Shown: piece by piece, positions 187-50,618 of the stretch
Layout: each line of letters starts with the position of its first letter
Position numbering within the stretch: the first letter of the stretch is position 1
NCBI GenBank assembly: GCA_016196755.1
Contig: JACPXC010000008.1
Span: 1-59,642, forward strand
DNA length: 59,642 bases
Source: Elusimicrobiota bacterium
Lineage (GTDB): Bacteria; Elusimicrobiota; Elusimicrobia; UBA1565
Reading direction: 5' to 3'
Made by a program: the position numbers and the translations under genes
The notes under the pieces: model-generated
Seen by the model: the letters and a program-made list of their open reading frames with translations, nothing else
Told to the model about the DNA's origin: nothing
Database searches by the model: none

Positions 187-792
187 TTGCGGAATGTAGG
201 TGGCATCTACGCTAGGGAATGGAATAGGGACAATGGACGGGTCGGCCACGTGTTCGAAGGTCGCTATTGGGTGAAAACCATCCGCAATGAGACTTCTCTC
301 TTGAGGGCCTCGCGCTACGTCCACCGGAATCCCGTTGAAGCGGGACTCGTGTCTAAGGCGGAAGATTGGCGTTGGAGCAGTATGGGGATCTATGCCGGGC
401 GCCGGGCTGGGGAATTCCTGGACAAGGAACCGATACTGCGCGCAATCGGTTCCGGCGGCACAAAGGCATACTGTGATTTCGTCGAGGCGGCTCGGGAACC
501 CGAGCCAAGCGACGACTGGTACTCCGACGATACGTGGCTTTTCACCGGCTCCGTACAGAAAAGAGCCTCGCCTGACTGGCGCTTGCGCGCGGGAGCGATA
601 ATGGATTCAATCGCCGTCGAGTTCGGTTTGCCTCAGGATCTGTGGCGCGGTGACTTGCGGTCCAAGGGACTGAGTGATATCCGCAAAGCGGCGGCAATGA
701 GGCTTCGCGCAGAGCTTTATCTCACTGTCCGCGAGATTGGGGAAGTGATCGGCGTCTCGGCGGGAACGATCTCGCGCATTCTGGCGGCCTGA
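187..792 (+). pseudogene. REP-associated tyrosine transposase (Y1/RAYT), N-terminally truncated
   Basis: The product matches the C-terminal half of IS200-like Y1 transposases that mobilise REP palindromes. It has the GRVGHVFEGRYW segment, the RYVHRNPVEAGLV segment and the WRWSS motif, followed by a helix-turn-helix tail of the DnaA-C type (LTVREIGEVIGVSAGTISRI) often fused to these enzymes. The N-terminal part with the HUH (His-x-His) metal site and its surroundings is missing. The same frame stays open upstream to position 1 but does not read as transposase before about residue TRELRNVGG, so a 5' deletion or recombination removed the catalytic site. The TTG at 187 is only the first formal start, not a believable native one. 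It is followed by trmL after 32 bp. Confidence 0.75.
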
Positions 793-27924: not shown

Positions 27925-29094
27925 TTACTGTCGGACGGCGGACGACCGAGCGCTATCGCGAGGAAGTGCCGCCTCCGAGTCCTTGGAGGCGGCCTCGGGC
28001 AGCGGCCGCGAGACCGGGAACCCCGACGGGATGGCGGAGTTCTTGAGCTTGCCGGCGCGGCGCTTCTTGACCGACCCGGCCACCTCGGCCACGTCGAAGA
28101 CCATGCGCAGGAACTTGGCGGGGCCCGAGAAGGCGTCGTTGACCGACGAGGGCTCGTAGCCCGAGTGCACCATGCAGTTGGCGCATTTCGGATTGCCCGA
28201 GGCGTGGCCGTAAGTCTCCCACTCCGTGGAGTCGAGCAGCTCCTTGTAGGAGGCCGCGTAGCCGCCCTCCGACATCAGGTAGCAGGGACGCTGCCAGCCG
28301 AAGACGTTCCGGAGCGGGATGCCCCAGGGCGTGCACTCGTAGTCGCGCTTGCCCTCGAGGAAGTCGAGGTAGAAGGTGCTGTGGTTGAAGTCCCAGCCCA
28401 TCTTGCGCCAGTCCTTGAGGGTCTCCTTGAACCACTTCTTGGTCTGGTCGCGCAGCAGGAAGAGGTCCTGCTGGGGAGCCTTCTCGTAGGCGTAGCCGGG
28501 GGAGATCATCATCCCGTCCACACCCATGGCCATGCACTCGTCGAAGAAGTGCCGGAACTCGGCGGAGTCCTCGCCCTGGAAGATGGTCGAGTTGGTCATC
28601 ACGTTGAAGCCCAGGGCCTTGGCCTTCTTGATGGCCGAGGTGGCGGCCTTCCAGACGCCCTCCTGGCAGACCATGCGGTCGTGGGTCTTCTCGACGCCGT
28701 CTAGGTGGATCGAGAAGATGAGCTGGCTGGTGGGCTTGAAGCGGTGGAGGTTCTTCTCGAGCAGGATGGCGTTGGTGCAGAGGTAGACGAACTTGCCGCG
28801 CGCCACGAGCCCGTCGACGATCTTGTCGATCTCGGGGTGGGCCAGGGGCTCGCCGCCCGCGACGGTGACGATAGGAGCGCCGCACTCGTCGGCGGCCTTC
28901 CAGCATTCCTCGGGGGTCAGGCGCTTGCGCAGGACGTCCGGCGGGTACTGGATCTTGCCGCAGCCGGCGCACTCGAGGTTGCAGGCGAAGAGCGGCTCGA
29001 GCATCATGACCAGCGGGTAGCGCTCGGCGCCGGAGAGCTTCTTGCCGAGGATATACTTGAACATCGTCATCTGCATGCGGAACGGTACGGGCAT
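27925..29094 (-). CDS. hpnH: Adenosylhopene-forming radical SAM enzyme HpnH
   Basis: Joins the 5'-deoxyadenosyl group of SAM to diploptene, the first step of extended (C35) hopanoid synthesis. The 389-residue product has the radical-SAM cluster motif CNLECAGC (C38, C42, C45), VAGGEPLAHPEI and a C-terminal auxiliary Cys region (NPKCANCMVHSGYEPSSV) typical of HpnH. The ATG at 29094 is chosen over a GTG one codon upstream because the GGAGG site is then 5 nt away. The last ~20 residues derive from an inserted repeat (27943-27993). Confidence 0.94.
   Translation of the reverse strand: MPVPFRMQMTMFKYILGKKLSGAERYPLVMMLEPLFACNLECAGCGKIQYPPDVLRKRLTPEECWKAADECGAPIVTVAGGEPLAHPEIDKIVDGLVARGKFVYLCTNAILLEKNLHRFKPTSQLIFSIHLDGVEKTHDRMVCQEGVWKAATSAIKKAKALGFNVMTNSTIFQGEDSAEFRHFFDECMAMGVDGMMISPGYAYEKAPQQDLFLLRDQTKKWFKETLKDWRKMGWDFNHSTFYLDFLEGKRDYECTPWGIPLRNVFGWQRPCYLMSEGGYAASYKELLDSTEWETYGHASGNPKCANCMVHSGYEPSSVNDAFSGPAKFLRMVFDVAEVAGSVKKRRAGKLKNSAIPSGFPVSRPLPEAASKDSEAALPRDSARSSAVRQ
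27943..27993 (-). repeat. Dispersed repeat copy A inside the 3' end of hpnH
   Basis: A core of 35 bp (27943-27977) is identical at 34 positions to 35181-35215, and similarity extends about 17 bp further. On the coding strand both copies translate in the same frame to EAALPRDxARSxA. The left flank here contains a perfect 9-bp hairpin (GCCGCCTCC/GGAGGCGGC, 27969-27993). It looks like an in-frame palindromic insertion. Confidence 0.75.
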
Positions 29095-29110
29095 CACATC
29101 CTCCGGGGGC

Positions 29111-33656: not shown

Positions 33657-35288
33657 TCAGGGGTCCGGCAGCTTCTCGAGCGCCGCGGCGAAATCGGCCG
33701 CGCTCCGGAAGCGGTGCTGGGGCTCCGGGGAGAGCGCCTTGGCCACCAGGTTGTCGAGGTCCTTGGAGAGCCCGGCCGCGGCGCTGGGCGCCTTAAACGA
33801 GCGCTCGCGCTTCTGCGCGAGGTAGTTGGGCCCCTCGAACGGTTGGACCCCCATGGCCATCTCGTAGAGGATGACGCCCAGCGAGAAGACGTCGGACTCC
33901 TTGAACACGGCGCCGAGTTCCTGCTCGGGGGCCAGGTAGGCGGGGTTGCCGATCGGGTCCGACCAGGAGAGCTTGGCGGCGATCTTACGGGCCTCGATGC
34001 CGATCCCGAAGTCGGCGACCTTGGTCAGGCCGTCGCGCGTGACCATCAGGCACTGCGGGGTCAGGTCGCCGTGGAGGATCTTGGACTGGTGGGCGTAGTC
34101 GACCGCGCGCGCGGCCTGGCCGAGCACGCGCTTGACCGAGGTGAGGTTGATGCGCCTGCCCGGCTCGATGAACTCGGAGACCGGCTTGCCGTCGACGCGC
34201 TCCGAGACGATGTGGACCCGGTCTTCCTCGACGAAGACGGCGTAGACCTCGCAGAGGTTGAGGTGCTTGAGGGCGGCGACCTGGCGGGCCCGCTCGAGCA
34301 GGCGGTCGAGGTCCTTCTCGTTGCGGTGCAGTTCCTCGCGCACGCGGCGGATGACGACCGGGCGGCGCACCTGGACCTCCTCGCCGTCGAAGTGCGAGCC
34401 CAGCGCGGTCATCGAGGGGGGCGACATGACGCGCCAGGTCCCGCCGAGGATCGCACCCAGGGCGGGCTCCGCGCGGCGGGCGATCGGGGCGGTGGCAGGG
34501 CCGCCCAAGGCGCGCACCGGAGCGGTCCGGCCCAGCGCCGGGGTGGGGGGGCCGCCGGCCAGCACCGGTTCGGGCACCACCCGCACCGGCATGGCGGTCA
34601 CCGTCTCGCGCCGGCGCCCCTTGGCGCGGCGCAGCAGCCAGCCCACGAAGACGATGAAGACGACGCCGGCCCCCGTCAGCGACCAGGCCAGCCGCTTGCG
34701 GTGCACGGCCGACTCCCGCGCGGCGCGCGCTTGGTCGAAGGCCGAGAGGTCGGCGCGCAGGGCCTCGTCGAGCTGGTCGCGGAAACGGGCCACCTCCTTG
34801 GGATAGTTGTCGTAGTCCATGACCCGGCGCAGGCTGTCCTGGACGTCGGCGCTGCCTCCTCCGGCGATCGCCGAGATGATCGCGGCGCCCTGGCGGAACT
34901 GGAACTCCTTGCGCAGGGTCTTGAAGTCGTCGGTCTCGTCGCGCAAGGTCTCGCGCTTGGCCTCGAGCTCGCGCAGGAGCGGCTCGCGCTCGCGGCCCAG
35001 GGCCGCGAGGTCCCCGTCGGCGTAGCTGTCCTTGAAATCGGCCAGGCGCGCCATCAAAGGCTTGATCTCGGCGACCAGGCCCTTGATGCGCTTCATCGAG
35101 ACGTGGATGCGCTTGTCCTCCGGGGGCTGGGCGGCGGCCGGCTCCGGCTCGGGCGCGCGCGCGGCGCGCCGGGGGGCGGCCGACCGAGCCCTATCGCGAG
35201 GAAGTGCCGCCTCCGGGGGCTTGGGTGCGGCCGAAGCCCCGGAGACAAACAGCAACGCTAGGAGCGCGGCGAGCCGCGTCCGTCTCAT
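33657..35288 (-). CDS. Membrane-anchored Ser/Thr-kinase-like protein with degenerate active site
   Basis: 543 residues: signal peptide 1-20, a periplasmic helical or coiled-coil region (about 60-195), one membrane helix (203-219), then a cytoplasmic kinase-like domain (about 280-540). DFG (426-428) and APE (453-455) are present. The catalytic loop reads HGDLTPQC (406-413) instead of HRDLKPxN, the VAIK lysine is Arg (VVIR, 311-314), and no glycine-rich loop is evident. Asp408 survives, so weak activity cannot be excluded, but a pseudokinase sensor role is likely. Residues about 26-43 come from the dispersed repeat. AAGGA plus a TATATT box lie directly before the ATG. Confidence 0.82.
   Translation of the reverse strand: MRRTRLAALLALLFVSGASAAPKPPEAALPRDRARSAAPRRAARAPEPEPAAAQPPEDKRIHVSMKRIKGLVAEIKPLMARLADFKDSYADGDLAALGREREPLLRELEAKRETLRDETDDFKTLRKEFQFRQGAAIISAIAGGGSADVQDSLRRVMDYDNYPKEVARFRDQLDEALRADLSAFDQARAARESAVHRKRLAWSLTGAGVVFIVFVGWLLRRAKGRRRETVTAMPVRVVPEPVLAGGPPTPALGRTAPVRALGGPATAPIARRAEPALGAILGGTWRVMSPPSMTALGSHFDGEEVQVRRPVVIRRVREELHRNEKDLDRLLERARQVAALKHLNLCEVYAVFVEEDRVHIVSERVDGKPVSEFIEPGRRINLTSVKRVLGQAARAVDYAHQSKILHGDLTPQCLMVTRDGLTKVADFGIGIEARKIAAKLSWSDPIGNPAYLAPEQELGAVFKESDVFSLGVILYEMAMGVQPFEGPNYLAQKRERSFKAPSAAAGLSKDLDNLVAKALSPEPQHRFRSAADFAAALEKLPDP
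35181..35231 (-). repeat. Dispersed repeat copy B inside the 5' part of the kinase gene
   Basis: Second copy of the element at 27943-27993 (34/35 core identity). It encodes PPEAALPRDRARSAAPRR just after the signal peptide, in the same frame as copy A. The inner hairpin is kept only in part (GCCGC…GCGGC). Confidence 0.75.
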
Positions 35289-38433: not shown

Positions 38434-38458
38434 ATTTACGCGCCCGAGGCGCGTAAAT
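38434..38458. repeat. Perfect 11-bp palindrome in the gap before the acyltransferase fusion gene
   Basis: ATTTACGCGCC-CGA-GGCGCGTAAAT lies between the DUF4015-gene stop and the aas ATG. It can act as a bidirectional hairpin terminator, although the following T-tract is poor. Its ends resemble those of the larger palindrome at 50546-50581 (AATTTAC…GTAAATT). Confidence 0.6.
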
Positions 38459-38513
38459 TCCGACTTTCTCCGAACCGGAATAGGGCGGCACATAAATTGA
38501 TGTCCGGAGATAG

Positions 38514-50509: not shown

Positions 50510-50618
50510 CCTGCAAATTTCCGAAAAATTGTCGAGGCAGCATATGCCGAATTTACCGTCGCTGGCGACGGTAAATTCGGCTTATTTTCGCTGGGGAATT
50601 TTTCCGAATTTTTGCAGG
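50510..50618. repeat. Nested palindrome, about 110 bp
   Basis: The centre is a perfect 16-bp stem with a 4-nt loop (GCCGAATTTACCGTCG-CTGG-complement, 50546-50581). It is enclosed by outer arms CCTGCAAATTTCCGAAAAATT (from 50510) and an imperfect complement ending AATTTTTGCAGG at 50618. It could be a MITE-like element, a structured RNA or a strong terminator. It fills most of the gap before the HNH gene. Confidence 0.75.

Follow-up and report, generated by a model that had tools for sequence, protein, structure and literature searches.

The locus and its two insertions

The window, i.e. the whole stretch of 59,642 nucleotides that was analysed, carries two near-identical copies of a short element, one in an hpnH-like gene and the other in a protein kinase gene (Table 1). 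They differ at one of 35 bases (27943–27977 versus 35181–35215) and are 86% identical over 63 bases. Their 33-base core has exactly two matches in the window and none in 100 dinucleotide-preserving shuffles. The two copies share their antisense reading frame, which gives EAASKDSEAALPRDSARS in the hpnH-like protein and SAAPKPPEAALPRDRARS in the kinase. A preliminary description had viewed them as a dispersed palindrome inserted in frame into unrelated proteins, in the manner of the Rickettsia palindromic elements, and this view is strongly supported by the copies, frames and empty sites reported below. It had also placed the inserts at positions that tolerate extra residues, a C-terminal tail and a linker behind the signal peptide. 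The hpnH-like protein of the congener G001 lacks the insert in the C-terminal tail and ends a few residues on, and the kinase of the congener G002 shows a gap of 16 aligned columns (one residue off 17) just past the signal-like segment. The term palindromic holds for the family consensus, which forms two hairpins, and less so for the kinase copy, whose hairpin 1 is decayed (C for G at label 9 of the aligned unit).

Table 1. Positions of the element copies, their hairpins, the host genes and the RAYT-like gene in the window
Feature	Position	Strand	Description and evidence
RAYT-like transposase ORF	187..792	+	Partial match to NF047646; shares 53% identity with a Y1_Tnp ORF at another locus of the genome
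Host gene 1, hpnH-like (Radical_SAM + DUF3463)	27925..29097	-	Pfam; insert in the C-terminal tail
Element copy 1 (labels 0–51)	27943..27994	+	In the hpnH-like gene, read antisense, frame A2; pattern and covariance model (81.2 bits)
Hairpin 1 of copy 1	27943..27966	+	CGACCGAGCG-CTAT-CGCGAGGAAG; conserved G-A mismatches, outer pair C0-G23; fold and cross-genome covariation
Hairpin 2 of copy 1	27968..27993	+	Fold and pair counts
Host gene 2, protein kinase	33657..35288	-	Pfam Pkinase; insert right behind the N-terminal signal-like segment
Element copy 2 (labels 0–51)	35181..35232	+	In the kinase gene, read antisense, frame A2; pattern and covariance model (69.3 bits)

Copy number, unit and ends

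The whole genome (4,593,637 bases in 67 contigs) contains 70 copies matching a 24-base core pattern with at most three mismatches (37 forward, 33 reverse), whereas the reversed pattern gave no match in the same search; a covariance model retrieved 72. This number excludes the alternative that only two copies exist, both flanking a larger duplication. Nor can a larger duplication be the cause, since the copies have unrelated flanks.

Once all 70 copies were aligned with their flanks, the conserved unit was found to extend from label 0 to label 51. It is 51 bp long (17 codons), or 54 bp in many relatives, and tandem copies show the same periods (51 bp at three places in this genome, 54 bp in the relative G030). 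Label 0 is a C in 70/70 copies; the left end reads CGAC, the right end GCGGCC, and the left flank shows a preference for a short GC-rich target, approximately GCSGSC. No consistent flanking target duplication was seen among the 70 copies. Five of the six frames of the unit are open, A1 holding a stop. The spans fall into two classes (52 and 55) and 75 of 79 equal 1 modulo 3, but two subfamilies produce these spans, so that they were not taken as independent evidence for frame selection.

Composite copies in the relatives G013 (L373, 1189–1270) and G007 (L072) consist of two successive hairpin-1 units followed by one hairpin 2 and are joined at GAAGTG|TGACC, which suggests that hairpin 1 may be able to act as a module. 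Five intergenic copies of G008 (L360, L361, L363, L364 and L365) have common flanks beyond the unit (ggaatc...GGCC, then agttgg-like), so that in this genome the element may belong to a longer repeat.

Two hairpins supported by covariation

The consensus single strand folds as two hairpins, from label 3 to label 20 and from label 25 to label 50. In hairpin 1 the loop is four bases long (NTAN), and the stem contains two tandem G-A mismatches that are invariant within the genome. Because the single-sequence folding energy is unremarkable compared with shuffles (z about -1), the structure rests on covariation. Strong compensatory changes were found in hairpin 1 across genomes: in copies from other genomes, the pair 8-15 changes from C-G to G-C and the pair 9-14 from G-C to C-G, and in three such copies the mismatched G-A/A-G step is replaced by G-C/C-G. 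The covariation score is 0.175 versus 0.047 ± 0.011 in shuffles, many of the loci having been retrieved by the covariance model, which favours pairs. Hairpin 2 includes four pairs with two-sided changes within the genome itself. Conservation is far higher in hairpin 1 than in the hairpin 2 loop, whatever the reading frame.

An unbiased mutual-information scan of 42 columns ranked three pairs highest, namely 9-14, 8-15 and 0-23. The last of these, which is absent from the covariance model, joins the left junction base to the base located just 3' of hairpin 1. It is C-G in 53 of 59 sequences, T-A in five and C-A in one (Fisher p 1e-6, uncorrected for relatedness); the T-A cases, which are not counted as independent events, represent two genomes or more (L101 and L259).

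Placement in genes and choice of frame

Gene calls came from a codon model, for which the long ORFs of the genome served as training set, rather than from standard annotation. On this basis, 59 of the 70 copies (84%) lie inside ORFs and 11 are intergenic, for a coding fraction of 0.90. The genic copies use the frames very unevenly (A2 35, S0 20, S2 2, S1 1, A0 1, A1 0), 55 of the 59 being read in two of the six frames, as AAPKASEAALPRDSARS or DRALSRGSAASEALGAA. The hypothesis that the five open frames are used equally is rejected (p 8e-18).

The GCSGSC sites themselves prefer certain codon phases. A model that takes the target into account, derived from the 11 intergenic flanks only, gives expectations of 0.34 for S0, 0.23 for A0, 0.20 for A2, 0.08 for S2, 0.07 for S1, 0.05 for A1 and 0.05 for intergenic insertion; target preference therefore accounts for part of the frame bias. 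Pure target chemistry was rejected as its explanation: the model accounts for S0 and for S1, S2 and A1 being rare but fails for A2 versus A0 (35:1, p 5e-11), and the two-frame bias as a whole departs from it (p 4e-9). The excess of A2 over A0 is most simply explained by selection against the A0 peptide. In the relatives, the frames are more even (S0 13, S2 12, A2 11, A0 8, S1 1, with 32 intergenic copies), and most of the copies sampled in G008 and G013 were called intergenic, the codon model possibly missing genes there.

A bias towards insertion on the lagging strand was also considered and is not significant relative to GC skew (33/55, p 0.18). The orientation of the element shows a weak relation to the local majority gene strand (19/55 alike, p 0.03).

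Host proteins and empty sites

According to Pfam, the hosts include IleRS, ArgRS, DnaG, TopA, enolase, SMC, MurD and GlgA. Most inserts lie between domains or at termini (DnaG, GlgA, a histidine kinase, a SnoaL-like pair, TopA, SMC, enolase, MurD), and three are located within a domain envelope (the catalytic domain of IleRS, the DALR domain of ArgRS and an amidohydrolase). Hosts such as IleRS and ArgRS keep intact open frames, and unrelated proteins, some of them encoded by essential genes, are predicted to carry the same 17 additional amino acids without their genes being broken.

Comparison with orthologues from the two congeners and other family members revealed clean empty sites: a block of exactly 17 residues, and nothing else around it, is missing in the relatives of IleRS, ArgRS, MurD, a secreted protein and an FtsX-like permease. 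In GlgA, 18 residues are missing in relatives, through one neighbouring indel, and the C-terminal tails of TopA, enolase and the hpnH-like protein are shorter in relatives. These empty sites indicate that the insertions are recent, precise and tolerated. Both congeners carry a C, not a G, at the gene-strand base of MurD that adjoins the junction; label 0 may therefore belong either to the target or to the insert.

Congeners carry their inserts at different sites with a single exception, the acyl-carrier linker of a polyketide-type synthase, which is occupied in this genome and, at two carrier domains, in G002. In G001, the same linker holds a different sequence, LPNPLPQAGEGRVR. Other repeat-like peptides occur in frame at spots used by the element, VTPTKVGVQSSDLLDSGFRRNDE in the ArgRS of G008 (L157) and PLPNPLPQAGEGRVR in the acyl-carrier linker of G001 (L198), and presumably recall widespread palindromic repeats. 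Since the acyl-carrier linker and the ArgRS loop hold other sequences in these genomes, linkers and loops look like repeated landing sites.

Distribution

The covariance model detected the family in 30 of the 53 genomes of the order. It is patchily distributed, with 72 copies here, 18 in the congener G002 and none in the congener G001, and in a second genus 37 copies in G007 and none in G005. The exact sequence CGAGCGNTANCGCGAGGAAGTGCC was found at 35 loci in GTDB r220 (one genome per species), of which 33 belong to Elusimicrobia MAGs, one to bacterium JA2.bin36 and one to Ruegeria; the Ruegeria match, which lacks hairpin 2, was treated as due to chance. The element is almost confined to Elusimicrobiota. 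Spread by phages, viruses or plasmids found no support: the exact core had no match in IMG/VR, and phage and plasmid collections gave none either. No title or abstract start describing palindromic repeats in Elusimicrobiota was found in the literature, as far as this was covered.

Comparison with known palindromic elements

Palindromic elements of Rickettsia, RPE-1 to RPE-8, were reportedly described by Ogata and co-workers in 2000 and are said to have relatives in Wolbachia. The element resembles them in being a palindrome dispersed in frame in conserved protein genes, which it does not destroy, and in having empty sites in orthologues; judged from the description of RPEs, it would match protein-coding palindromic elements as a kind. 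It differs in build and in host. RPEs are single long stem-loops of about 100–150 bp found in host-restricted, AT-rich intracellular bacteria (PMC3767692, PMC2229807), whereas the element is 51 or 54 bp long, forms two hairpins, is GC-rich and resides in a groundwater lineage with a 4.6-Mb genome.

REPs tagged by GTAG or CGTC are short hairpins, some of which lie in ORFs, including genes for tRNA synthetases and for DNA repair (Di Nocera et al. 2013, PMC3733652). The element shares with REPs the intragenic copies and, with the CGTC REPs, which have no dedicated transposase (PMC3733652), the lack of such an enzyme. However, REPs are predominantly extragenic, unlike the element. The GTAG tag is absent from its ends (CGAC and GCGGCC), and no copy was found in the stretches around the 12 Y1_Tnp hits of the genome, some of which lie near contig ends. 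Compared with CGTC REPs, which have a stem of 8–9 bp and a loop of 4–5 bases (PMC3733652), its end is CGAC and not CGTC, TGTC or CCTC, and its 4-base loop tops a stem that is broken by the tandem G-A mismatches.

A miniature element derived from a cut-and-paste transposon was rejected because the two ends differ (CGACC and GCGGCC) and no consistent duplication flanks the 70 copies. Assignment to GTAG REPs, to CGTC REPs or to classical MITEs was not retained.

A possible mechanistic likeness is to IS200/IS605 elements such as IS608 and to TnpA-REP systems, in which an imperfect hairpin likewise lies by a fixed left-junction nucleotide, there is no detectable target duplication and the junction pairs with an internal base. 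A mismatched bulge is also required in the REP of Escherichia coli (PMC8266576). IS608 uses a tetranucleotide guide 5' of the hairpin for its choice of site (PMC5934647), and guided choice has been discussed for TnpA-REP (PMC8266576). By contrast, the element displays a single covarying pair, located 3' of the hairpin, and does not contain any transposase gene. By analogy, the C at label 0 in every copy, the net insertion of 51 bp, the conservation of the mismatched hairpin and the covariation of pair 0-23, seen as a changed pair in five cases, would fit a guided single-strand transposition.

Origin and maintenance of the family

Taken together, the element is probably a non-autonomous selfish palindrome of 51 bp with two hairpins, which inserts precisely by short GC-rich targets and whose surviving copies are filtered by site and by frame. 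Its copy number, hairpins, empty sites and frame bias are direct observations, from which we infer mobility and guide pairing. The following lifecycle can be proposed. The element would move as a single-strand hairpin through an HUH-type or other enzyme acting in trans, and the junction nucleotide at label 0 would be picked by pairing with the internal guide nucleotide at label 23. Insertion would be precise and could occur at any place in the genome, beside short targets rich in GC (about GCSGSC). As the unit is a multiple of three, produces no detectable target duplication and has five open frames, an insertion would add 17 residues without a frameshift. Most other genic insertions would then be purged, and the survivors would be the copies lying in exposed linkers, loops and termini and read in the two frames that give small or polar peptides rich in Ala, Ser and Arg.

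A more specific version, in which the element is a mainly intragenic mobile palindrome, is possible but somewhat doubtful. Its triplet length, its stop-poor frames and a GC-rich target that favours some codon phases in GC-rich genes would open coding DNA to it nearly as freely as non-coding DNA, the site would be chosen by pairing of the guide nucleotide with the target, and the enzyme would not be a known RAYT.

It seems rather unlikely that the element is the REP of a RAYT system, moved by one of the Y1 tyrosine transposases of the genome. Twelve Y1_Tnp hits were found (one below the family cut-off), the RAYT-like ORF of the window being a further one, and the mismatched hairpin, the lack of a detectable target duplication and the fixed left-junction base resemble REP and IS200/IS605 substrates (PMC8266576, PMC5934647). 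The ORF had been proposed as a RAYT remnant and a possible mobilizing enzyme. It is indeed RAYT-like, its match to NF047646 (REP_Tyr_transpos, E 3e-12) falling below the curated cut-off, but its frame is open to the contig start, so that the contig end truncates it and it is not necessarily a remnant. The role of mobilizer is not supported. No copy of the element was found in the stretches around the 12 hits, some of which have short flanks and several of which are near contig ends. The numbers of RAYT genes and of elements are uncorrelated (Spearman 0.06, 53 genomes), and six element-bearing genomes (G008, G033, G042, G043, G046 and G048) gave no Y1_Tnp hit at E 0.001. At one RAYT locus (L234, contig C26), what lies around the RAYT-like gene is instead a different, unrelated repeat, AAGTCAACAAGTCAACAACTGGCACC, in three copies. 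This repeat also occurs elsewhere in the genome and is a candidate for the repeat family of the L234 RAYT itself.

Much less probable is a role of the repeat as a chromosome site or RNA element (protein-binding site, processing or terminator signal) that host selection maintains and that lies in genes incidentally. The frame-independent conservation of hairpin 1, far above that of the hairpin 2 loop, and the compensatory changes would agree with this, yet recognition by a mobilizing enzyme explains the conservation equally well. Moreover, the element is missing from a congener whose genome is 92% complete and from several family members, its orientation shows no significant bias relative to GC skew, no Rfam match was obtained for six host loci, and the acyl-carrier linker is the only site that congeners have in common.

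It is very unlikely that selection acts on the common peptide as a protein motif (tag, linker or localization signal), with the DNA repeat being secondary: although the two dominant frames give similar small or polar peptides and A2 greatly outnumbers A0 while their targets are about equally common, the two peptides come from opposite strands and are unrelated as readings, 11 copies lie between genes, S2 and A0 are also common in relatives and the hosts have no common function.

Selfish palindromes within protein genes are best known from Rickettsia and Wolbachia, and intragenic REPs elsewhere are a minority. The present family adds a mostly intragenic case from a free-living, GC-rich lineage of another phylum, located in housekeeping genes and recent enough for exact empty sites to be found. 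Three old questions become testable with it, namely the way in which such elements move, the reason for their tolerance and whether the repeated insertion of ready-made peptides truly yields new protein segments. It also carries a warning for annotation: peptides common to unrelated Elusimicrobiota proteins are not domains.

Other repeats in the window

Between two called genes of the window (38438–38460) there is a second palindromic repeat, ACGCGCCCGAGGCGCGTAAAT, which also occurs at L243, L246, L305, L314 and L320. It is often found about 90 bp from another palindrome, GTGCGCGAAGCGTGCAC, the two having 23 and 15 matches, respectively, in approximately 1 Mb of the genome. A 48-nt inverted repeat at 50515–50612, AT-rich in a GC-rich window, has arms that are 79% complementary and 2 nt apart.
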